A stretch of DNA of 64,000 nucleotides from Luteimonas huabeiensis HB2 (lineage in GTDB: Bacteria > Pseudomonadota > Gammaproteobacteria > Xanthomonadales > Xanthomonadaceae). Positions 1 to 55,553 of the stretch are shown here, piece after piece. The notes beneath the pieces were generated by a model. The model did not search any database, was not told where the DNA came from, and saw only the letters and a program-made list of their open reading frames with translations. The position numbers were made by a program, and so were the translations under genes. The DNA lies in NCBI RefSeq assembly GCF_000559025.1, contig NZ_JAAN01000035.1:1-64000 (forward strand). Reading direction: 5' to 3'. The stretch's first letter is position 1. Every line of letters begins with the position of its first letter.

Positions 1-3000
1 GGCCGCCACGTTGGCGATCTGCCGCTCTTCCCCGGCCGCGCCGACCGACACCGTGTGGTCGCGGTCGGCCACCGAGCCCCGGCCCAGGGCCACGCTGCCT
101 TCGCCGCCGGCCTCGCTGTCGGAACCCAGCGCCAGCGAGTGGTCCCCGTGGGCCTGGCTGGAGTTGCCCAGCGCGGTGCTGTTGAAGCCGCTGGCGCTCG
201 CGGCGCCGCCGATCGCCGTCGCGTAGTCGCCGGAGGCCTCGGTCGGGAGCAAGCCCCAGAACGCACCGCCCACCGCCACGCTGTTGTCGCCGCTGGCGAT
301 GGCGTTGGCGCCGACGGCGGTCGCGTCGTAGTTGCCCGCCACCGCGCCGAAGCCGACGGCGGTGCTGTTGTCGGACTGCGCCTCGGCGCCGTAGCCCAGC
401 GCGGTCGCGCCGAAGCCGCTCGCGGTCGCGTAGCCGCCATAGGCCGACGCGGCGTCGGCGCTGGCCTCGCTGCGGAAGCCGGTGGCCGTGGCCTGGGTAC
501 CGGAGGCCTGCGCCTCGCTGCCGGTGGCGGTGGCATAGGCGCCGTCGGCGATCGCGCCGGCGCCGCTGGCGGTGGCGCCGATCTCCTGCGCCTGCGCCCC
601 CGTGCCCAGCGCCGTGCTCGATTCGCCCCAGGCTTCGGCGTAGGCGCCCAGCGCCACCGCGCTCGCGCCGCCGGCGACCGAGTTGAAGCCCACCGCCGTC
701 GCCGCCTGCTCCAGCGCGAACGCGCCGCTGCCGAAGGCCGAAGACGCTTCCGCGGAGGCGTTGCTGCCCGAGCCCACCGCGGTGGCATAGTCGCCGTCGG
801 CCGTGGCGTTGGAACCGGCGGCCAGCGCTTCCTCGCCGGTCACGAAGGCCTCGCCCTCGCCGGTGGCGCGGAAGTACCACCGTGTTCGCGCGGTCGGCCC
901 GCGACCCCTGGCCCAGGGCCACGCTGCCGTCGGCGCTGGCGACCGCGTCGGCGCCCAGGACCACGGTGTTCTCGCCGTAGGCCTCGCCGAAGTTGCCGAC
1001 CACGGTGCTGTTGTCGCCGCCGGCGTAGGCGGCGCCGCCGATGGCGGTGGAGAAGTCGCCCGCGGCCTCGGTCGGCAGCAGGCCGGCCAGGGAGCCGCCG
1101 ACGGCGACGCTGTTGATGCCGCTGGCGAGCGCCGCCTGGCCGACCGCCGTGCTGTAGCTGCCGGAAGCGACGCTGTCGGAGCCGAGCGCCACGCTGCTCG
1201 AGCCCGATGCGGTGCTGAAGTTGCCCAGCGCGGTGGCGTTGAGGCCGGTCGCCGCGGCATAGCCGCCGATCGCGGTGGCGTAGTCGTTGCCCGCCTCGGC
1301 CAGCAGGCCGAACGCGGCCGCCGACTCGCCGCTGGCGATGCTTTCGGCGCCGACCGCGGTGGCGCCCTCGCCCGAGGCGTCGGCGTAGAAGCCGACCGCG
1401 GTGGCCTCGATGCCGGAGGCACTGGCGAGCGCGCCCGAGGCGAGGCTGCCGTCGCCGCTGGCGACGGCGCCGGCGCCGGTGGCCGTGGCCAGTTCGCCGG
1501 ACGCCTCGCTCTCGGCGCCCAGCGCGATCGCGTACTCGCCGCTGGCGCTCGACGCCGCACCCAGCGCGAGCGCGTTGGCCGCCATCGCCGAGGCGTTGAA
1601 GCCGATGGCGGTGGCGTTGGCCTCCAGCGCGAAGGCGCCGCTGCCGAACGCGGACGCGCCCTCGGCGAGCGCCACCGCGCTCGAGCCCACGGCGCTGGAG
1701 TAGTCGCCGTCGGCGGCGGCGTTGGCGCCGGCCGCCAGCGCTTGCTCGCCGGTCACGAAAGCCTCGCCCTCGCCGCTGGCCTTGAAGTAGCGCTGGGTGC
1801 CCTCGGCGAGGTCCGCGACTTCTTCCAGCTGGGCGACGTTGACCGCGTCGTGGGCGTCGACGCCGTCGGACACGTTGACGATCCGCCGCGTGGCCGGATG
1901 CCCGCCGGCGCCGGTGCCGTTGCCGACCGAGACCACGTTCTCCTGGGTGGCGCGGGAACCCGCGCCCAACGCGACGCTGCTGGCGCCGTTGGCCCAGGCG
2001 CTCAGGCCGAGGGCGGTGGCGTTGGCGCCATAGGCATAGGCATCGCGACCGATGGCGGTGGCGCCCGCCGCGGTCGCCCAGGCGAACTGGCCGACGGCGG
2101 TGGTGTGGTCGGCGGTGGCCCAGGCCGAACCGCCGACCGCGACGCCGTTCAGGCCGGTCGCGCTCGACGACGAGCCCAGCGCGACGCTGGTCGCCCCGCT
2201 CGCGGTGGCGCTGATGCCCACCGCAGTGGCTCGCGCGCCGCTCGCCTCGGTGCCGTAGCCCAGCGCGGTGGCGAAATCGCCGGTCGCCTCGCTGAAGCCG
2301 CCGTTGGCGGTCGAAGCCAGACCGCTGGCGATGCTGCGGTAGCCGGTGGCCGTGGCCTGGGTGTTGCTCGCCGTGGCGGCCGCGCCGGTGGCGCTGGCGT
2401 AGGCACCGGTGGCCTGCGCGCCCGCGCCCAGCGCCGAGGCGCCCTCGGCGGATGCCGTGGTGACCTGGTCGAGCACGATGGCGCCGTCTTCGCCCACCGC
2501 ATACAGCGTGCCGCCGATCGCGGTGCTGGAATCGGCCTCGGCGACCGCGCCATAGCCCGAGGCCAGCGCGTACTGGCCGCCGGCCAGGGCGCCGGTGCCG
2601 AGCGCGGACGCCCCCACGCCGTAGGCGGTGGCGCCCGCGCCGACGGCCGTGGCGTAGTCGGCCTCGGCGTAGGCGCCGGAACCGGCGGCGGTGGATTCCT
2701 CGCCGGTGGCGAAGGCCTCGCCCTCGCCGGTGGCGGTGAAGTAGCGACTGTCGGCGGTCGCCGCCTGCAGCTGTTCCAGGTTCACCGCGTCGGTGGCCTC
2801 GGTGCCGGCCGCCACGTTGGCGATCTGCCGCTCTTCCCCGGCCGCACCGACCGACACGGTATGGTCGCGATCGGCCAGCGAATCGCGGCCCAGGGCGACG
2901 CTGTTCTCGCCGGCGGCGACCGCGCCCGCGCCGAACGCGCTGGCGTCGTGGCCGCTGGCGAGCGCGCCGGCGCCGACGGCGGTGCCGTAGTCGCCTTGCG

Positions 3001-3748
3001 CGGCCGCGTCGTAACCCACGGCGGTCGCCGCATAGCCGCTCGCCGCGGCGTAGCCGCCGTAGGCCGAGGTCGCGTCGGCGGTCGCCTCGCTGAGGACGCC
3101 GGTGGCGGTGGCATGGGTCCCCGAGGCCAGCGCATCGCTGCCGGTCGCGGTGGCGTCGTCGGCCTCGGCGACCGCGCCGGCGCCGGTGGCGGTCGCGCCC
3201 TGCGCGTCGGCGCGCGCCCCGGCACCGATGGCGATGCCCGCATCGCCCCACGCTTCGGCGCCGGCCCCCAGCGCCACCGCGCCCTCGCCGGCGCCCAGCG
3301 CGTTGTAGCCGATCGCGGTCGCGGCTTGCTCCAGCGCGAACGCGCCGCTGCCGAAGGCCGACCCGCCTTCCGCCGTCGCCTGCGCCGCCGCGCCCACCGC
3401 GGTCGCGTAGTCGGCTTCCGCGGCCGCGCTGGCGCCGAGCGCGGTCGCGTCGCTGCCCGTGGCGAACGCGCCCTCGCCGCAGGCGACCGCGCCGGCGGCA
3501 TCGGCGGTTCCGACCGGGTTGCCGTCGGCGTCGTAGCACACGGCCTGCGCCAGCGCCTCGCCCGGCACCGCGGCCGTCGCCAGGCCCATCGCGATCGCCA
3601 GCGCCAGCGCCGCCAGGGCGTGCCCGGTCACCGTCTTCGTCGTGCCGTCGTCCGTCCGCATCCCGGCGCTGTCGCCCGAGGCCAGTTCCGATGCCACGAC
3701 CAGCTGACCCAGCGAGCTGTTCCACACTTTTCGATAGATGCGGTTCAT
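1..3748 (-). CDS. trimeric autotransporter adhesin (YadA/Hia type), 5' part only, frameshifted
   Basis: Surface adhesin of the type Vc class, exported by Sec and anchored as a trimer in the outer membrane. It begins with an extended signal peptide region (MNRIYRKVWNSSLGQLVVA), then a hydrophobic core and an AQA cleavage region near residue 70. After that come hundreds of residues of YadA-head repeats such as ATAVG, SVALG and SSAFGSGA, with neck motifs (DAVNLEQL near residue 320, DAVNVAQL near 640). The membrane anchor must lie beyond the left edge. A good ribosome site (AGGAAGGG) precedes the ATG. Coding runs in one frame from 3748 to about 877 and in a different frame from 876 to 1, because a neck segment of about 110 bp is missing at 871-884 (see findings). 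Unless this is an assembly error at a repeat, the anchor would not be made in frame and the gene would be broken. Confidence 0.85.
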   Translation of the reverse strand, partial: MNRIYRKVWNSSLGQLVVASELASGDSAGMRTDDGTTKTVTGHALAALALAIAMGLATAAVPGEALAQAVCYDADGNPVGTADAAGAVACGEGAFATGSDATALGASAAAEADYATAVGAAAQATAEGGSAFGSGAFALEQAATAIGYNALGAGEGAVALGAGAEAWGDAGIAIGAGARADAQGATATGAGAVAEADDATATGSDALASGTHATATGVLSEATADATSAYGGYAAASGYAATAVGYDAAAQGDYGTAVGAGALASGHDASAFGAGAVAAGENSVALGRDSLADRDHTVSVGAAGEERQIANVAAGTEATDAVNLEQLQAATADSRYFTATGEGEAFATGEESTAAGSGAYAEADYATAVGAGATAYGVGASALGTGALAGGQYALASGYGAVAEADSSTAIGGTLYAVGEDGAIVLDQVTTASAEGASALGAGAQATGAYASATGAAATASNTQATATGYRSIASGLASTANGGFSEATGDFATALGYGTEASGARATAVGISATASGATSVALGSSSSATGLNGVAVGGSAWATADHTTAVGQFAWATAAGATAIGRDAYAYGANATALGLSAWANGASSVALGAGSRATQENVVSVGNGTGAGGHPATRRIVNVSDGVDAHDAVNVAQLEEVADLAEGTQRYFKASGEGEAFVTGEQALAAGANAAADGDYSSAVGSSAVALAEGASAFGSGAFALEANATAIGFNASAMAANALALGAASSASGEYAIALGAESEASGELATATGAGAVASGDGSLASGALASASGIEATAVGFYADASGEGATAVGAESIASGESAAAFGLLAEAGNDYATAIGGYAAATGLNATALGNFSTASGSSSVALGSDSVASGSYSTAVGQAALASGINSVAVGGSLAGLLPTEAAGDFSTAIGGAAYAGGDNSTVVGNFGEAYGENTVVLGADAVASADGSVALGQGSRADRANTVVLPRHRRGRGLRDRRGSAGRRFQRHGRRRLCHRGGLGQQRLRGSVFGLRQRRVRAGAGGDGGGLQLGRRRRERGGAGRLRRSLGRIEHGAGHGGAGAGDRRHRQRRRRDRRRRLCHRHRQRGAGLRYPGHGHRLPQRGQRRRRVGLWRLRDRERLRRDRAGLRRRGAVRQQHRRRLRRGGGQLRRDRRRRQRHRQRRQQRGGGRCVLGLAPDRGLRRLRDGDRRRRERQRLQQHRAGQLQPGPRGPLAGAGFRQRGRRRRQRGPGPGLGGRPRPHGVGRRGRGRAADRQRGG
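871..884 (-). other. frameshift/deletion junction inside the adhesin gene
   Basis: Reading the minus strand, the upstream side ends ADRANTV. In the sister modules that position is followed by SVG...RQIANV...DAVNLEQL...R and then YFTATGEGEAF. Here the sequence jumps directly to YFRATGEGEAF with about 110 bp missing and the frame shifted by one. Head repeats are read cleanly on both sides, in different frames. Confidence 0.7.
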
Positions 3749-40214: not shown

Positions 40215-41747
40215 CTACAGCGCGTAGCTGGGACGATCCGGCAGGCCGAGCTCGCGGCGCAGGCCGTTCTCGGTCAGGTGGATCGGGTTGTGGGTGGTGG
40301 GGGGCGTGCGCGGGTCGCCGTCGAAATCGTAGGCGGGGGCGGAGGTCTCCAGCCCCACGGCCTGGCGCTCGGCGTTCGGCACGCGGCCGTCATCCGGACC
40401 CTCGCCACGGTAGGTGCCCGGCAGGAAGGTGCCGTTCACGCCGTTGTAGGCATGCGACATCTCGTGGTACAGCACCACGGTCGGGGCCGGGAACGCGTCC
40501 ATGTGGAAGGACGGGTTGTAGCTGATCGTCACGTCGCCGCCCGCGCCGGGGCGGCCGTTGACGATCTCGGCGCTACCGCGGCCGTGGGTCTGGGCGTAGC
40601 CGTTCTGCTCGTTGGCCAGCTCCTGGATGGTCACCCGGTTGCCCTTGCTGGCGGCCGCGGCATCGAACTCGCTCAGCATCTGGGTGCCGTTCGGCGAGGC
40701 GCGCAGGAAGTCCAGCTCGGCCTCGATGCGCTGGCGGAACTGCTCGGAGCCCTGCACCGTCACGGTATTGCCGGCGTTGGCGTCGATCTCGACGTTGACC
40801 ACGGTCGGCCGTGCGTTGGTGGCGGCGTTGATCAGGTCGCCGACCTCGGCGTACACGGCGCCCCGGTCGCCGGCGCCCTCGACGGTGTCCTGCCCGAGGC
40901 CGGTGTAGATGTAGTTCTCGCCGGAGGCGTCGGCGTGGATGGCATCGTCGCCGCGGCCGCCGGAGAGCACGTTGTGGCCGGTGCCGCCGCGGATCTCGTC
41001 GTTGCCGCGGCCGCCCTCGATGAAGTTGAAGCCGTTGCCGCCCTGGATGACGTCGTCGCCGTCGCCGCCGAAGATGATGTTCTCGCCGTCGGTGGCGGTG
41101 ATCACGTCGTCGCCGTTGCCGCCGTCGATGTCGTTGCGGCCGCCGATGGTCTCGATGGTGTCGTTGCCGTCGCCGCCGAAGATGCGGTCGTCGCCCATGC
41201 CGGTGCGGATGGTGTCGTCGCCGGCGCCGGCATCGACGACCAGGTTCACGGTGACGTTGGGGGCGGCGACGATGGTGTCGTTGCCGTCGCCGGTGCGCAG
41301 GGTCAGCTCCTGCTGGGTATTCAGGCGCACCGCGTACTGCTCGCCGTTGACGTCGATGTCGAGCGTGCCGTCGTCGCGCTGGCTGATCTGGATGTGATCG
41401 TCGCCGCCGCCCTTGGTGGTGAAGACCACCTGGTCGCTGCTGACGTAGCCGCCCGCGTCGGTGCGCTCGCGGGTGACCGTCGCCTGCTGGCCCTCGTGGA
41501 GCTGGGCGTGGGCGACCGGCTTGCCGTCGGGGGTGCGGGTGGACGGCAGGCTGGTGCCGCGGTCGTTGCCGCTGATCGGGATCGCGGTGTCGGCGACGTT
41601 GCGCATCGCCCGCTCGACCGGCGCGGACTCTCCGGGGCTCAGCGGCGCTTCGGCGAAGCGATCGGTCTCGGCCGCGCGCTGGTTGTCCCAGTAGCCCTGG
41701 GGAGCCAGTGGGGCGGAGGTCTGGAGGCTGCTGTCGAAGCTGGACAT
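40215..41747 (-). CDS. RTX-repeat protein with C-terminal M91/NleD-like zinc metalloprotease domain
   Basis: A 510-residue protein without a Sec signal. The N-terminus (1-105) is unassigned. Residues about 150-290 hold calcium-binding RTX nonapeptides (GAGDDTIRTG, GGDGNDTIET, GGNGDDVIT, GGDGDDVIQ, GGRGNDEIRG, GGRGDDAIH), typical of type I-secreted proteins. Residues about 330-510 contain a zinc motif HEMSH (428-432) in VVLYHEMSHAYNGVNG, then NAERQAVGLE and NENGL-type segments (here LTENGLRRELGLPDRPSY). This resembles the M91 family of NleD/XopG effectors. No type I exporter genes are nearby. Likely a secreted protease or toxin; target unknown. Confidence 0.8.
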   Translation of the reverse strand: MSSFDSSLQTSAPLAPQGYWDNQRAAETDRFAEAPLSPGESAPVERAMRNVADTAIPISGNDRGTSLPSTRTPDGKPVAHAQLHEGQQATVTRERTDAGGYVSSDQVVFTTKGGGDDHIQISQRDDGTLDIDVNGEQYAVRLNTQQELTLRTGDGNDTIVAAPNVTVNLVVDAGAGDDTIRTGMGDDRIFGGDGNDTIETIGGRNDIDGGNGDDVITATDGENIIFGGDGDDVIQGGNGFNFIEGGRGNDEIRGGTGHNVLSGGRGDDAIHADASGENYIYTGLGQDTVEGAGDRGAVYAEVGDLINAATNARPTVVNVEIDANAGNTVTVQGSEQFRQRIEAELDFLRASPNGTQMLSEFDAAAASKGNRVTIQELANEQNGYAQTHGRGSAEIVNGRPGAGGDVTISYNPSFHMDAFPAPTVVLYHEMSHAYNGVNGTFLPGTYRGEGPDDGRVPNAERQAVGLETSAPAYDFDGDPRTPPTTHNPIHLTENGLRRELGLPDRPSYAL

Positions 41748-41965
41748 GGACGGGCCCTGGAATCGGTACGGTGGTGTACAGATACGGGATGGTATGGGCG
41801 CGGCGAAAGCTAGGGCGTACCCCAAGTTGGGGGCGACCCCAGCACGCGGGCGGATCCCAGGCCCGGTCCTCGCTCGCTGCACCGCAGCAGCGCGCTCGGT
41901 AGAATGAGCGGCTTTCCCCTTTCCCGGACGCGCCCGCCGCGCCCGCCTACCGGAGTCGTCATCGC

Positions 41966-43836: not shown

Positions 43837-44742
43837 TCAATAAATAACTCTTGTCACTCTGCACACTTTTTCGGCGCCGACCCCACTACATACGATCGAA
43901 GTAATCGCGCCACCTGCCGCCCCCACAAACGTCATCGTAGCGCCCAGACGGCCAAAATGATCAGCCATGGGACCAAGATTATCCCCACCCCCATTCGTCC
44001 AAGTACCCCTCACATCATCAATGCTTGATGGAATGGCCTGCCCTGCTGCAGTCCTAGCAGAATCTTCAATATAGGTTCCGAGAGGGCTATCTATATCGAC
44101 GGTGAATTGAACATAACTTCCATCTGTGAACACAACCTTGAAAATCAGCCCCGCTTGATCACGCAAGCCCAGGTAGGAAGTCACCAATGATTTGAGATCT
44201 TGCAATGCGCCTATCAAGTTGGAAGATGTGACTTGCGATATAACGCCAGCGTCACCAACTGCCGAAGAAACCATAGACCGCATATTGTAATCCTTGACGA
44301 ATTCATATGCGGTTTTAGTCCGGTGACTAGCAGGAAGACCCAACATGTGAACTGGAACGTTGAACATGGGACGCAGATCACCGCCAATTGCATGAAGCGT
44401 GTGAGCTTTATTCAGCTCATTAACAGCCTCCACAGGCGGGATACGTTCTAAAGCAGTCGAACTTGCAACTGCAGCGGTGGCGCCCTCCACATTCATGGGA
44501 GTACCAGGCGGGCCGCCCGGACCGCTCCCCCCGGAAGTAACGTGCCAGTATTCAATTCGATTGTTCGTTAGGCTGTACACCAAATGGTGGCCCTGACCAG
44601 CAGATATAGCCCGCCCACGGAACTGGTCGCTAGTCGCGCAGCTATCGCATCTGAGGGGTTTATAAAACTGGGCCTCGGCTCGAGAAGCAGCCAGCATAGA
44701 CGCAGCAAAAACACCCGCCAATAAAATGCCCTTGACATCCAT
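43837..44742 (-). CDS. low-GC secreted protein of unknown function, probably acquired
   Basis: A 301-residue protein with a clear signal peptide (ILLAGVFAASMLAASRAEAQ). I recognise no domain. The mature part has two Cys in RCDSCATSDQFRG, then RAISAGQGHHLVYSLTNNRI, a Gly/Pro loop and a C-terminal GGAITSIVCSGVGAEKVCRV. Base composition is strikingly lower in GC than all neighbours, with AAT, ATA, TCA and AGA codons that are rare elsewhere in the window, suggesting recent transfer. The first codon is taken as ATG at 44742; a TTG one codon earlier is possible. The ribosome site is weak. The gene has its own terminator. Confidence 0.75.
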   Translation of the reverse strand: MDVKGILLAGVFAASMLAASRAEAQFYKPLRCDSCATSDQFRGRAISAGQGHHLVYSLTNNRIEYWHVTSGGSGPGGPPGTPMNVEGATAAVASSTALERIPPVEAVNELNKAHTLHAIGGDLRPMFNVPVHMLGLPASHRTKTAYEFVKDYNMRSMVSSAVGDAGVISQVTSSNLIGALQDLKSLVTSYLGLRDQAGLIFKVVFTDGSYVQFTVDIDSPLGTYIEDSARTAAGQAIPSSIDDVRGTWTNGGGDNLGPMADHFGRLGATMTFVGAAGGAITSIVCSGVGAEKVCRVTRVIY

Positions 44743-44856
44743 CAATTCATTCCATCCAAGGAAAAGGGGAGACTGAAGCTAACATATGGTTAAACTGAAG
44801 GCAAAACACTTTCAATTGCGAGACTGATGCAAAATACAGATTTATCGCGGACTCTT

Positions 44857-44886
44857 AAAAAAAGAGGCGGGCCTTACGGCCCGCCT
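44857..44886 (-). terminator. intrinsic terminator of the TonB receptor gene
   Basis: Minus strand: AGGCGGGCC-GTAA-GGCCCGCCT followed by C and a run of T. It lies just after the receptor stop. Confidence 0.92.
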
Positions 44887-44900
44887 CCTCTTTCTACCGA

Positions 44901-47789
44901 TCAGAAGCGCTGCTGGTACTTCATGTAGGTGAAACGACCGAAGTCGAAGCCACCATAGTACGAGAAGCCGCTACTCGGCCCCGCGTAGACCACCTGCCCT
45001 TCGCGATCGAACACGTTGTTCACGCCAAACGAGACCGTGGCGTTCCACGGCGCGCGCCAACGAATCTGGACGTCGTTGAACGTGTTGGAACCCATCTCAT
45101 TGACGCCGTACGCGATCCCATCGTGATCGATATAGCCCGGGTTGTTGCAAATCTCCGCGAGCGATTCGATCAGGCAGCTTTCCCGGAAGCCCGAAAAATA
45201 ACGCGCCGTCCAGGTCGCACCGAAGTCGCCGTACTCCCAGTTCAGATTGGCTACCGAGCGGATACGGAAGACGATGCCCGAACCCGCCCAGCCGACGTTG
45301 GGCTGCGGGGTGGTGTTTTCGGTGTTGTCCGCCTTGGTCTCGAAGTTCGAGTAGTAGGTGCTCTGCCAGTTAACCGAGAAATCGCCGAAGCGCGTCTCGG
45401 GAAGCCGGTAGTTGACCTCGAAATCGAAGCCCTCCACGTCCCAGTAGCCGGCGTTGCGCCCGATCCGGGTCAGCGAATCGACGACGCCATCCTCACCACG
45501 AGTGAAGTACTGGCACTGCGAGGCGATGTCGTAGACATAGCAGTCCCTGAGGATGCCGTTGGCGGTAAACGCGGTGATCACGTTGTCGATCTTGGTGCGC
45601 CACCAGTCCAGCGACACGCCCAGGCCTTCAACGTAGCTCGGGCTGTAGACGACGCCCAGCGAACGGCTGGTCGTGGTTTCCGGGGTCAGGTTGGGGTTCG
45701 AACCGCTGAGGAACGGCGTACCGGTCTGGCCGCCATAGGCGGGGCTGCCGCCCTGACCGAGTTGAACGAAGCCGGCGTAGTTAGCGATGTCGCCCGCGCA
45801 ACGCGCATAGACATCGGCATTGCTCGCCGCAACTCCGTTCACCGTGTCGCACGGATCGGAATAGTAGTCGAACGTCTGGCCGACGCCGCCGTACAGATCG
45901 GACACCGACGGAGCGCGGAAACCTTGGGCCCAGGTTCCGCGGACCAGCAGGTCTTCGATCGGGCGCCAGCGGAAGCTCGCCTTGCTGTTAGTGGTATCGC
46001 CAAAGACATCGTAGTCGGAATAGCGGCTGGCGACGTTGAGCGAAAGCTCCTGAGCACCCGGCAGGTCCGCCAGCAACGGGACGTCGAGTTCGAGGAAGAA
46101 CTCATCGACCGAGTAGCCGCCCGAGGTCTCCTGGGCCGCCAGGTTGGTCGAGTTGCCGGTCTGGGCGAAGGCGTCGGGCGAGTAGCGACCTTCGACCTTC
46201 CGGTGCTCCACACCGGCTGCGAAGCCGAGTTCGCCGGCCGGCAGTGCGGCGATCACGCCGCTGACGTCGGCGAAGTAATTGTGCGTGGTCGTCTCGGAGG
46301 TCGCGTTTTCCCAAAGGAAGAACTTGTTCTGGATATCCGGGTTGGCCAGCGAGTTCGGACCTTCGCTCAGCACCGGGCTCCACGGGATGCAATCGCCCAG
46401 CGAAATCGGCGCATCCGGCGTACCACACTGCACGACGCCGTCGGCGTTCAGGAACGACGGTCCGACCGCCTGGGCGACGGCCAGCTTGTTGAAGTCACCG
46501 CGGGCACGGATGGTGGCATCGCCGCGGGTGTACAGATAGCCGGCATTCCAATCGAGGAAGCGGTCGCCGAAGTCGAAGGTGCCCTCGAAGATGCCGCTGA
46601 AGCGATAGGTATCGAGCTTGCGGTCGGTGGTACGCGGCACCTCCCAGCCACGGCGGCGGAAGTTCAGCACCTCACCGGTCGGGTTGAAGTAGCTGTCCGC
46701 GCTGATCGGCGTCTGCACGTCGACGTTAGCGCTCTGGTACGGATAGCCGGCGACCTGCACGCTGGTCTCACGACGGTTGAAGCTGGCGTCGGTGACGAAG
46801 CGGGTATTGTCGGTCAGATCGAAAGAGGCGCTGGTAAAGAGCGACAACCGCTCCATTCCCGTCTTGACCATCATCTGCTCGGCAGCGCGGCTGGAGTCGC
46901 CGTACTCACCATCGAACGGATCGAGCTGGGCACGGTAGTCGCCCAGATTGGTCGGGTCGCCGCCGTCGCGCAGGACAAGCCATGCGTCGGGCGCCCTGGC
47001 GTTCGGCTGGTCGGGATTGCGGATGTTGCCGCGCGCACCCACCATCGTCCAGCTGTAGGGCTCCAGCGCAGCCGGGCCCGGATAGGTGTCGAGCGCCCAC
47101 CAGCGGTCGCGCGCCCAGACCGGCTTTTCTTCGTCGTACTGGACGCCGAAGGTAATCGCGCTGCGCTCGCCGACCGAGCCGATGGTGAAGTCGAACGACT
47201 GGGTCTGGCCGTCGCCTTCGCCGTACTGGCCGATGTAGGCATTGGCTTCGGCGCCGTCGAAGTTGCGACGGGTGATCACGTTGATCACGCCGGCCACGGC
47301 GTCGGAGCCGTACAGGGCCGACGCGCCATCCTTCAGCACCTCGATGCGCTCGACCATCGACGACGGGATCGTCGCCAGGTCCTGCAGGCCGTCGTTGTTG
47401 ACGCCCAGGCGGCGGCCGTTCAGCAGCACCAGGGTGCGCTCGGGGCCGAGGTTGCGCAGGTCGACGTAGGTGCCGCCGGGGCTCTCGCCGGCGTTGAGCG
47501 GCGAGCTGCGGCTGAGCGCCGGGGAGCCGGTGACCGCGATGTTCTGCAGGATGTCGCCGACGGACTGGAAGCCCTGGTTCTCGATGTCGGCGCGCGAGAT
47601 CGACAGAATCGGCTGCGCGGTCTCGACGTCGACCTTGCGGATGCGCGAGCCGGTGACCTCAATGCGGTCGAGCGTGGTCGCGCCGCTAGCTGCGCCGTCT
47701 TGGGCGAAGGCGGCCGACGCGGGGACGAGCGCCGTCAGGATGGCGGCCGGGAGCAAGCCCCGCCGCATCGCTGGAATGCGAGCTTTCAT
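44901..47789 (-). CDS. TonB-dependent receptor, large Xanthomonas/Lysobacter type
   Basis: Outer-membrane receptor of 962 residues. Signal peptide (LLPAAILTALVPASAAFAQ) and TonB-box region TTLDRIEVTGSRIRKVDVE. The plug has DILQNIAVTGSPALSRSSP, PERTLVLLNGRRLGVNNDG and VLKDGASALYGSDAVAGVIN. The barrel includes GFRAPSVSDLYGG and NPNLTPETTTSRSLG and ends FTYMKYQQRF. It belongs to the large-receptor group abundant in Xanthomonadaceae, whose substrates are mostly unknown (peptides, sugars). GC content is a little lower than that of the neighbours. A GGAGAGAG ribosome site precedes the ATG. An AraC-type and a CadC-like regulator lie upstream on the same strand. Confidence 0.93.
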   Translation of the reverse strand: MKARIPAMRRGLLPAAILTALVPASAAFAQDGAASGATTLDRIEVTGSRIRKVDVETAQPILSISRADIENQGFQSVGDILQNIAVTGSPALSRSSPLNAGESPGGTYVDLRNLGPERTLVLLNGRRLGVNNDGLQDLATIPSSMVERIEVLKDGASALYGSDAVAGVINVITRRNFDGAEANAYIGQYGEGDGQTQSFDFTIGSVGERSAITFGVQYDEEKPVWARDRWWALDTYPGPAALEPYSWTMVGARGNIRNPDQPNARAPDAWLVLRDGGDPTNLGDYRAQLDPFDGEYGDSSRAAEQMMVKTGMERLSLFTSASFDLTDNTRFVTDASFNRRETSVQVAGYPYQSANVDVQTPISADSYFNPTGEVLNFRRRGWEVPRTTDRKLDTYRFSGIFEGTFDFGDRFLDWNAGYLYTRGDATIRARGDFNKLAVAQAVGPSFLNADGVVQCGTPDAPISLGDCIPWSPVLSEGPNSLANPDIQNKFFLWENATSETTTHNYFADVSGVIAALPAGELGFAAGVEHRKVEGRYSPDAFAQTGNSTNLAAQETSGGYSVDEFFLELDVPLLADLPGAQELSLNVASRYSDYDVFGDTTNSKASFRWRPIEDLLVRGTWAQGFRAPSVSDLYGGVGQTFDYYSDPCDTVNGVAASNADVYARCAGDIANYAGFVQLGQGGSPAYGGQTGTPFLSGSNPNLTPETTTSRSLGVVYSPSYVEGLGVSLDWWRTKIDNVITAFTANGILRDCYVYDIASQCQYFTRGEDGVVDSLTRIGRNAGYWDVEGFDFEVNYRLPETRFGDFSVNWQSTYYSNFETKADNTENTTPQPNVGWAGSGIVFRIRSVANLNWEYGDFGATWTARYFSGFRESCLIESLAEICNNPGYIDHDGIAYGVNEMGSNTFNDVQIRWRAPWNATVSFGVNNVFDREGQVVYAGPSSGFSYYGGFDFGRFTYMKYQQRF

Positions 47790-51404: not shown

Positions 51405-51587
51405 TTCAGATCGCGGTCAACAAGATGAGCCCTGCATGATGCCAACCCAACGCTGAACGCCTGGCAAGGCAACGCGCGGATTCGGCAAAGTCGGCGTCCA
51501 GCCGGCGCGCCACCTGGGGCACGACCTAGTGTCCGGCCCCGCGCCACCACGCCTAATCTGCCGGCAGTTCCGCTCGGATCCCTTGCC

Positions 51588-52331
51588 GTGCCAGAGATCG
51601 CCGCCTCGCCGCTTCCGGCCCCAGCGCCGCTGCAACTTCCTGGCCAGGGCCTGCGCGCGCTGGACGCCGCCGCGGCCGCCGGCCTCGACCTCGACGCGCA
51701 CATCGCCGAACTCGCCGAATCGGGCGAACTGTCCGGGTTCCTGTCGCAGACCGATGAGGCGCTGGACCTGGCCGCGCAATCGCCGATCTTCGCCCAGCAG
51801 CTGGATTCCCTGCTCGGCCGCATTCGCGATGGGCTCGGCGCGCTGGCCACCGAACGCCTGGACGCCGCCGATCGCGAGCGCGTCGAGCAGACGCTCTCGC
51901 GCCTGGATGCCTACCTGCCCGAGCCGCCGGAGGCGCCCGCGGCCGAGGTGCCGGGCGGAGGGCTCGAGGCGCACGAGGACGTCGGCGGCCACCTGATCGA
52001 GCGTCACGTCGGCAAGAGCGAGCAATGGCTGGCCGATCGCGTCGCCAGCGAGAACATCAGCGCGGCGTCGAGCTTCCGCGACCTGCCGGCCGCCGAGCAC
52101 TTCGTGGCCGAGACCCTCGCCGAGCACCGGGACCGCATCGACGCCTGGCTCGACGGCCAGGGCGGCAACCGCCTCGTGGTCGATGCCCGCTTCGACGCCA
52201 GCACCGGCATCTCGGTGCAGCGCGGCGACACCCGGGCCGAGGACGTGTTCTCCGTCCGCCTCGTGCTGGAGCGTTCGAACGCGCTGGACATCGGCTATAG
52301 AATCGTGACCGGCTACCCGACCCCGCCCTGA
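51588..52331 (+). CDS. RNase A-like toxin (CdiA-CT RNase A domain) with short N-terminal domain
   Basis: A 247-residue protein with a GTG start and no signal peptide. Residues 1-120 are helical and unassigned (LRALDAAAAAGLDLDAHIAE). Residues about 133-247 match the bacterial RNase A-like toxin domain of contact-dependent inhibition CdiA C-termini: GGHLIERHVGKSEQWLADR, ISAASSFRDLPAAEHFVAE, and the end YRIVTGYPTPP. His140, Arg151, Thr241 and Tyr243 have the same spacing (11, 90, 2) as the four catalytic residues I recall for the Yersinia CdiA-CT RNase A enzyme (His175, Arg186, Thr276, Tyr278). An immunity-like gene follows after 14 bp. No CdiA/CdiB, type VI or type IV secretion genes are in the window, so the delivery route is unknown. 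Confidence 0.82.
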   Translation: MPEIAASPLPAPAPLQLPGQGLRALDAAAAAGLDLDAHIAELAESGELSGFLSQTDEALDLAAQSPIFAQQLDSLLGRIRDGLGALATERLDAADRERVEQTLSRLDAYLPEPPEAPAAEVPGGGLEAHEDVGGHLIERHVGKSEQWLADRVASENISAASSFRDLPAAEHFVAETLAEHRDRIDAWLDGQGGNRLVVDARFDASTGISVQRGDTRAEDVFSVRLVLERSNALDIGYRIVTGYPTPP

Positions 52332-52345
52332 GCCGCCGCGACCGC

Positions 52346-52636
52346 ATGAGCGACTATCCCGCGCTTGAGAACTTCTTCGCCGCCTACTTCCATCAGGACT
52401 GGGCCGCCGAACACGCCACCGCGGACGCGGTGATCGACTACTACCGCGGCGCCGAATCCGCCGACCAGCTGGCGGCCGCGCGCGAAGAACTCGACCGGCT
52501 GTTGGCCCAGGGCTACGACGAACACGCGCTGGCGCAGCTGGCGCGCAGGCTGGGATCGGAGTACGACCCGACCCGCGACGGCCGCAGCTGGCAGGACTGG
52601 CTGGATTCGCTGCGGCGGCGGCTGGCGCCGCCCTGA
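52346..52636 (+). CDS. CdiI-type immunity protein for the RNase A-like toxin
   Basis: A 96-residue acidic cytoplasmic protein that by position and sequence neutralises the upstream toxin. It fits the CdiI_2 immunity pattern: YPALENFFAAYFHQDWAAEH, then AREELDRLLAQGYDEHALAQ, then LGSEYDPTRDGRSWQDWLD. It starts 14 bp after the toxin stop, so the two are one transcript. Known members pair with RNase A-like and other toxins, so the cognate relation is inferred. Confidence 0.85.
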   Translation: MSDYPALENFFAAYFHQDWAAEHATADAVIDYYRGAESADQLAAAREELDRLLAQGYDEHALAQLARRLGSEYDPTRDGRSWQDWLDSLRRRLAPP

Positions 52637-53379: not shown

Positions 53380-55441
<2,062 letters not shown>

Positions 55442-55553
55442 CGCCATTAGACCGGGAAACCCGGGAGGACGCCAGCACGCAGAGACGCCATCACGCCGCC
55501 GCCGGCCCGCCCTCGCCGATCCTCGTGAAGGCATTGTGAAACCGTGGGCGGAT

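Follow-up and report, generated by a model that had tools for sequence, protein, structure and literature searches.

The 247-aa toxin and the CdiI_2-family protein encoded next to it are probably an effector-immunity pair of the Luteimonas type III secretion (T3SS) regulon, a reading to which we assign a probability of about 0.6. If so, the T3SS would export a nuclease toxin against which the producing cell protects itself, as the sequences suggest. The pair lies in a stretch of 64,000 nucleotides of Luteimonas huabeiensis HB2, here called the window. A preliminary description of this DNA had named an orphan RNase A-like toxin with a CdiI-type immunity gene and an undescribed delivery or adaptor domain. 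Its account of the family, the catalytic spacing and the CdiI_2 partner holds, and its terms "orphan" and "undescribed delivery domain" are not the best reading. The lead to delivery comes from regulation and co-occurrence, both of which are beyond view from one window.

Table 1. Features of the window that bear on the toxin locus and its candidate regulon
Feature	Position	Strand	Remarks
Toxin gene	51588..52331	+	247 aa; purifying selection
Residues 1-22, variable N-terminus, candidate secretion signal	51588..51653	+	low-confidence prediction
Residues 23-112, helical bundle common to longer polymorphic toxins	51654..51923	+	profile matches
Bacterial RNase A domain, residues 134-244	51987..52319	+	carries His140, Arg151, Thr241, Tyr243
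Immunity gene, CdiI_2 family, 96 aa	52346..52636	+	PF18593 E 2.3e-27; 5e3e_A E 6e-6
Promoter box CTGGGGCACGACCTAG	51514..51529	+	two mismatches to CTNGGGTNNNCCCNAG; 74 nt 5' of toxin start
-10-like element GCCTAATCT	51551..51559	+	37 nt after box start
RTX repeats and peptidase M91 (HopH1/NleD-type), 510 aa, second candidate regulon member	40215..41747	-	PF14891 E 4.2e-48; PF00353 E 1.4e-19
Two adjacent boxes before RTX-M91 gene	41810..41842	-	T3SS-only matrix

The toxin and its immunity protein

The profile search that the preliminary description had proposed for the C-terminal part of the toxin matched the RNase A-like family PF18431 well above the cut-off (110.5 bits against 27), covering positions 1-113 of the 113 in the profile. 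The domain extends to residue 244 of 247 and is the only Pfam family matched in the toxin. The four residues proposed as catalytic, H140, R151, T241 and Y243, align onto the active-site residues H175, R186, T276 and Y278, with the spacing that had been claimed. RNA cleavage is a candidate activity of this domain.

The same kind of search, also proposed earlier, placed the 96-residue partner in the CdiI_2 family (PF18593, 96 bits). A homologous partner is found 3' of the toxin gene in 27 of 27 loci, the window included, with BLASTP identities of 54-100% to the window partner. One genome, G006, resembles a case of orphan immunity: a CdiI_2-like gene adjoins a WHH toxin and PF18431 is absent from the genome. 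At the Luteimonas abyssi locus (L053:5692-8865, - strand), a 1057-aa protein with no Pfam match over cut-off is encoded directly 3' of the immunity gene.

The dN/dS ratio is low in the toxin part (0.03-0.26 in nine pairs), in the N-terminal part (0.10-0.31 in nine pairs) and in the partner (0.06-0.21 in seven pairs). The toxin and its partner are working genes and not debris.

The N-terminal part of the toxin

Structure prediction places five helices inside residues 23-109, and this helical module recurs in larger proteins. Four longer proteins adjoin the toxin locus in relatives (two of 414-415 aa, one of 431 aa and one read partly), and their match to the module has profile E-values of 9e-19 to 1.5e-14 in a search of these four sequences; in a whole-genome profile search the region of residues 23-112 gave E 1e-5. 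The long toxins are built of a hydrophobic segment, then the helical module, then a toxin domain. Pfam was applied to two of them: one has Endonuclea_NS_2 at its C-terminal end, with a YezG-like immunity gene after it, and the other ends in Colicin-DNase/WHH and is followed by a SUKH gene. Three toxin-immunity combinations, counting RNase A with CdiI_2, are accordingly found behind a common helical module, as in polymorphic toxins. A Sphingomonas relative of 369 aa combines the long front part and the hydrophobic segment with the RNase A domain, and a CdiI_2 gene (E 5e-21) adjoins it. The module is missing entirely from two Luteimonas versions of the toxin (L026 and L027).

Because the module recurs in longer polymorphic toxins, the first ~110 residues of the toxin resemble the rear end of a polymorphic-toxin chassis rather than a separate adaptor. 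An undescribed delivery or adaptor domain is not the best reading of a module that also stands before other nucleases and that two versions of the toxin do without.

The extreme N-terminus is predicted with low confidence (pLDDT of 51 and 43 in the first two 10-residue blocks). S, T, P, N and Q make up 36% of residues 2-26 in 17 toxin rows, compared with 23% on average and 36% at the 90th percentile in 44 window genes, a composition that is only suggestive of a secretion signal.

A promoter box common to the toxin gene and T3SS operons

The 26 toxin upstream regions each contain a palindromic box followed after 16-17 nt by a CCTANNCT-like element, and a best-match box is found 5' of 26 of 26 toxin genes, in both cases with a matrix fitted to those same sequences. 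In 19 of 26 loci, the distance from the box start to the chosen start codon is 71-79 nt; outside the window, gene starts and "intergenic" calls come from an in-house codon-usage caller and may be off. Shuffles of the window, 192 kb in total, gave two matches of at least 15 and none of at least 17 with the toxin-fitted matrix. The box remains with the toxin despite a different neighbour gene, for example in L003 and L009.

A second matrix avoids circularity, as it was built from 21 sites taken solely from T3SS cluster loci (in some cases both strands of a single palindrome count as sites). With this matrix, the toxin box scores 11.6 on the + strand and 16.2 on the - strand and is the second-best place in the window. 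The best lies before the RTX-M91 gene, which has the same box 78 nt upstream; one box there scores 19.2 and 17.7 on its two strands, and the adjacent one 14.3. The next place in the window after these two promoters scores 11.4, barely under the + strand value of the toxin box. Over 14 genomes, a match of at least 8 precedes 11/13 toxin genes, 11/11 RTX-M91-type genes and 3/4 long toxins, compared with 3/190 other genes, one of them a ppa gene missed by the classifier (Fisher, toxin vs other, 6e-14). The ppa genes (9/9) and TolB-like genes (2/7) were counted apart, as these can have a divergent intergenic region in common with an effector gene. At the same threshold 23 of the 26 toxin promoters are matched. 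Conversely, the toxin-only matrix at a threshold of at least 14 detects an intergenic box in 10/10 T3SS cluster loci, of which five (L041-L045) had been retrieved when no motif was yet known and the other five were cut to contain sites already found, and in 0/4 T6SS clusters.

Exact copies of CTNGGGTNNNCCCNAG follow the same pattern. Strand-hits number 4, 7, 12, 15, 11, 11, 9 and 1 in eight T3SS-positive congeners, against 0, 0, 1, 0 and 2 in five T3SS-negative congeners, and two outgroup genomes without SctJ have three each. An exact site lies at most 12 kb from SctJ in all eight T3SS-positive congeners. In the own genome, the T3SS cluster contains SctV, SctN, SctR, SctS, SctD, SctJ and a needle protein over cut-off and SctI below it, together with a histidine kinase and a LuxR-type response regulator. 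As sequence evidence the shared box is strong, and the toxin gene and the T3SS operons may be expressed together as one candidate regulon.

Outside T3SS clusters and toxin promoters, 31 sites were read in seven genomes, with one G044 site near its T3SS omitted. Counted by eye, 28 of them are outside called genes, three are inside, and 25 have a predicted start no more than 160 nt away. The genes led by the box encode M91-type proteins, Ntox44 (E 8.6e-16), DUF1521 (E 6.3e-32), DUF4474, LysM proteins and, with weak matches under the Pfam cut-offs (E 0.001-0.009), lipase-like proteins, after which come ankyrin genes; several have no Pfam match. Because three further box-led genes are TonB-receptor-like by eye, the box may not be exclusive to T3SS-linked genes. 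No box was found at the T3SS region or the toxin locus of Sphingomonas.

We take the DUF1521 Pfam family to be the NopE-type proteins. PMC6506597 describes NopE-type proteins as secreted by the T3SS in Bradyrhizobium, and a homologue from Vibrio as encoded in a T3SS cluster. HopH1/NleD-type peptidases are named as T3SS effectors in PMC3482391.

Several other features were noted. At L083, L094, L099 and L103, an ankyrin-repeat gene is placed like an immunity gene after each box-led lipase-like protein (at L103 both assignments were judged by sequence only). A peptidoglycan-type enzyme with SLT, LysM and M23 domains stands behind a box inside the G054 T3SS cluster (L044:14801-16159). RTX-M91-like proteins adjoin ppa in many Luteimonas loci. 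In the window, a YadA-type trimeric autotransporter with an ESPR signal is encoded at 2-3748 (- strand), its gene running past the left end. A 302-aa ORF with a signal-peptide-like start (43837-44745, - strand) lies in the kilobase of lowest GC (0.51, 44001-45000) and was possibly acquired.

Distribution of the toxin and of secretion systems

The toxin protein has matches in 28 of 101 genomes at E <= 0.001, the own genome included; G006 matches via the helical module only. PF18431 is found in 27 of the 101: 26 belong to the genus and the remaining one to the family outside it. The 26 named loci comprise 19 from Luteimonas, four from Lysobacter or unnamed Lysobacteraceae, two from other MAGs and one from Sphingomonas yantingensis. 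In many relatives the locus is near thiC/ppa; in the window, a TPP riboswitch (55349-55443, - strand, 61.8 bits) precedes thiC.

The T3SS was counted as present when SctJ exceeded 140 bits. The scores that follow are under 88 and come from reading frames about as long as flagellar FliF, and the curated cut-off of 162 is passed by only 29 of 101 genomes. By this measure 47 of the 61 family genomes sampled have a T3SS. It is present in 27/27 toxin genomes vs 20/34 other family genomes (P 6e-5), and within the genus in 26/26 vs 20/26 (P 0.011), both from raw counts that ignore kinship. The distant toxin holder Sphingomonas yantingensis also has a T3SS, as do 25 of 151 Sphingomonas genomes, itself included. 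With a T3SS in every toxin genome and a box common to T3SS operons, "orphan" is not the best description of the toxin.

Alternative explanations

The pair could be a cytoplasmic toxin-antitoxin or phage-defence system that never leaves the cell. No signal peptide was seen by eye on the toxin, the immunity gene is adjacent in 27/27 loci, and the sequence is conserved, with many relatives keeping its place near thiC/ppa. However, the toxin shares its promoter box with T3SS operons, and its helical module is that of polymorphic toxins whose immunity genes are YezG-like or SUKH; we regard this explanation as unlikely.

About equally unlikely, if anything slightly more so, is that the RNase is T6SS cargo, carried on Hcp or VgrG into rival bacteria while CdiI_2 provides self-immunity. 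The own genome has a T6SS, and TssB is enriched in toxin genomes, both in the family (15/27 vs 3/34, P 8.5e-5) and in the genus (14/26 vs 1/26, P 6e-5), where the association is stronger than that of the T3SS; kinship is ignored in these counts too. Nevertheless, a TssB match is missing in 12/27 toxin genomes, and none of four T6SS clusters has the intergenic box. Pfam matched no PAAR, VgrG, Hcp fusion or MIX/FIX marker in the toxin; the absence of PAAR and VgrG counts against this explanation, although cargo effectors need none of these.

It is improbable that a longer toxin was cut down to the present one, leaving a relic or storage cassette that lacks its own means of delivery. The long relatives, among them the Sphingomonas form with the same RNase domain, do carry a front part and a hydrophobic segment that are absent from the 247-aa form, but the N-terminal part that it retains is under purifying selection too, and its promoter is conserved, with the box at a similar distance from the start codon in most loci.

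A contact-dependent inhibition (CdiA/CdiB) toxin is very improbable: both domains are of CDI families and the own genome has two ShlB-type matches elsewhere, but the 247-aa chain has PF18431 as its sole Pfam match and is no large CdiA, ShlB was matched in 7 of the 20 toxin-bearing genomes searched, and no CdiB was recognised by eye among the window genes.

Proposed mechanism and significance

As an effector-immunity pair of the T3SS regulon, the genes would work as follows. A regulator would bind the palindromic box and so activate T3SS operons and scattered effector genes jointly; a guess from position is that this regulator is the histidine kinase with the LuxR-type response regulator of the T3SS cluster. 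The toxin would be kept inactive in the cytoplasm by CdiI_2, would exit via the T3SS using its unstructured N-terminus, and its RNase A domain would cut RNA inside the target cell.

The strong conservation of the toxin domain, unlike that of an arms-race toxin, speaks against this reading. Together with the single fixed partner, it makes an arms race with rival bacteria somewhat less likely and would agree with a eukaryotic target; it would also fit an immunity protein that doubles as a chaperone. On the other hand, the Ntox44, NS2 and HNH nucleases and the genes placed like immunities speak for bacterial targets. We tentatively consider, at odds well short of even, that the Luteimonas T3SS is a weapon against bacteria whose regulon delivers polymorphic toxins, several with an immunity-like gene. 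Such a regulon would deliver RNase A, NS2 and HNH nucleases, Ntox44, and lipase-like and peptidoglycan-type enzymes.

Injectisome effectors are known as host-directed proteins and are not known to need an immunity gene. A T3SS regulon with nuclease toxins and cognate immunities would imply either an antibacterial T3SS or a self-protection problem alien to ordinary effectors; in the former case, a type III injectisome would do what T6SS and CDI are known for. The box also offers a simple means of listing candidate effectors of the little-studied Luteimonas T3SS.

Comparison with known systems

HopH1/NleD- and NopE-type effectors are host-directed and are not known to have immunity genes. The Luteimonas toxin differs from them in having one. 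The likeness lies in the related families M91 and DUF1521, which stand behind the same Luteimonas box; PMC3482391 covers the HopH1/NleD metallopeptidase type and PMC6506597 the autocleaving NopE type.

X-T4SS effectors are known to carry a C-terminal secretion domain. In the Luteimonas toxin the RNase domain reaches the C-terminus, and VirB4 showed no association with the toxin; it is thus not placed among these effectors. What it shares with the bacteria-killing X-T4SS effectors of Lysobacteraceae (PMC6536674) is related bacteria and effector-immunity pairs.

Polymorphic toxin systems (Zhang et al. 2012, PMC3482391) resemble the present one in having a common module before swapped C-terminal nucleases with matching immunities. 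The closest counterpart in domain content is CdiA-CT/CdiI of Yersinia kristensenii (PDB 5E3E), with an RNase A domain, all four catalytic residues and a CdiI_2 partner. According to PMC9086364, the Yersinia domain forms the tip of a large CdiA that CdiB exports, whereas the Luteimonas domain belongs to a protein of 247 aa whose gene has a T3SS-type promoter box.
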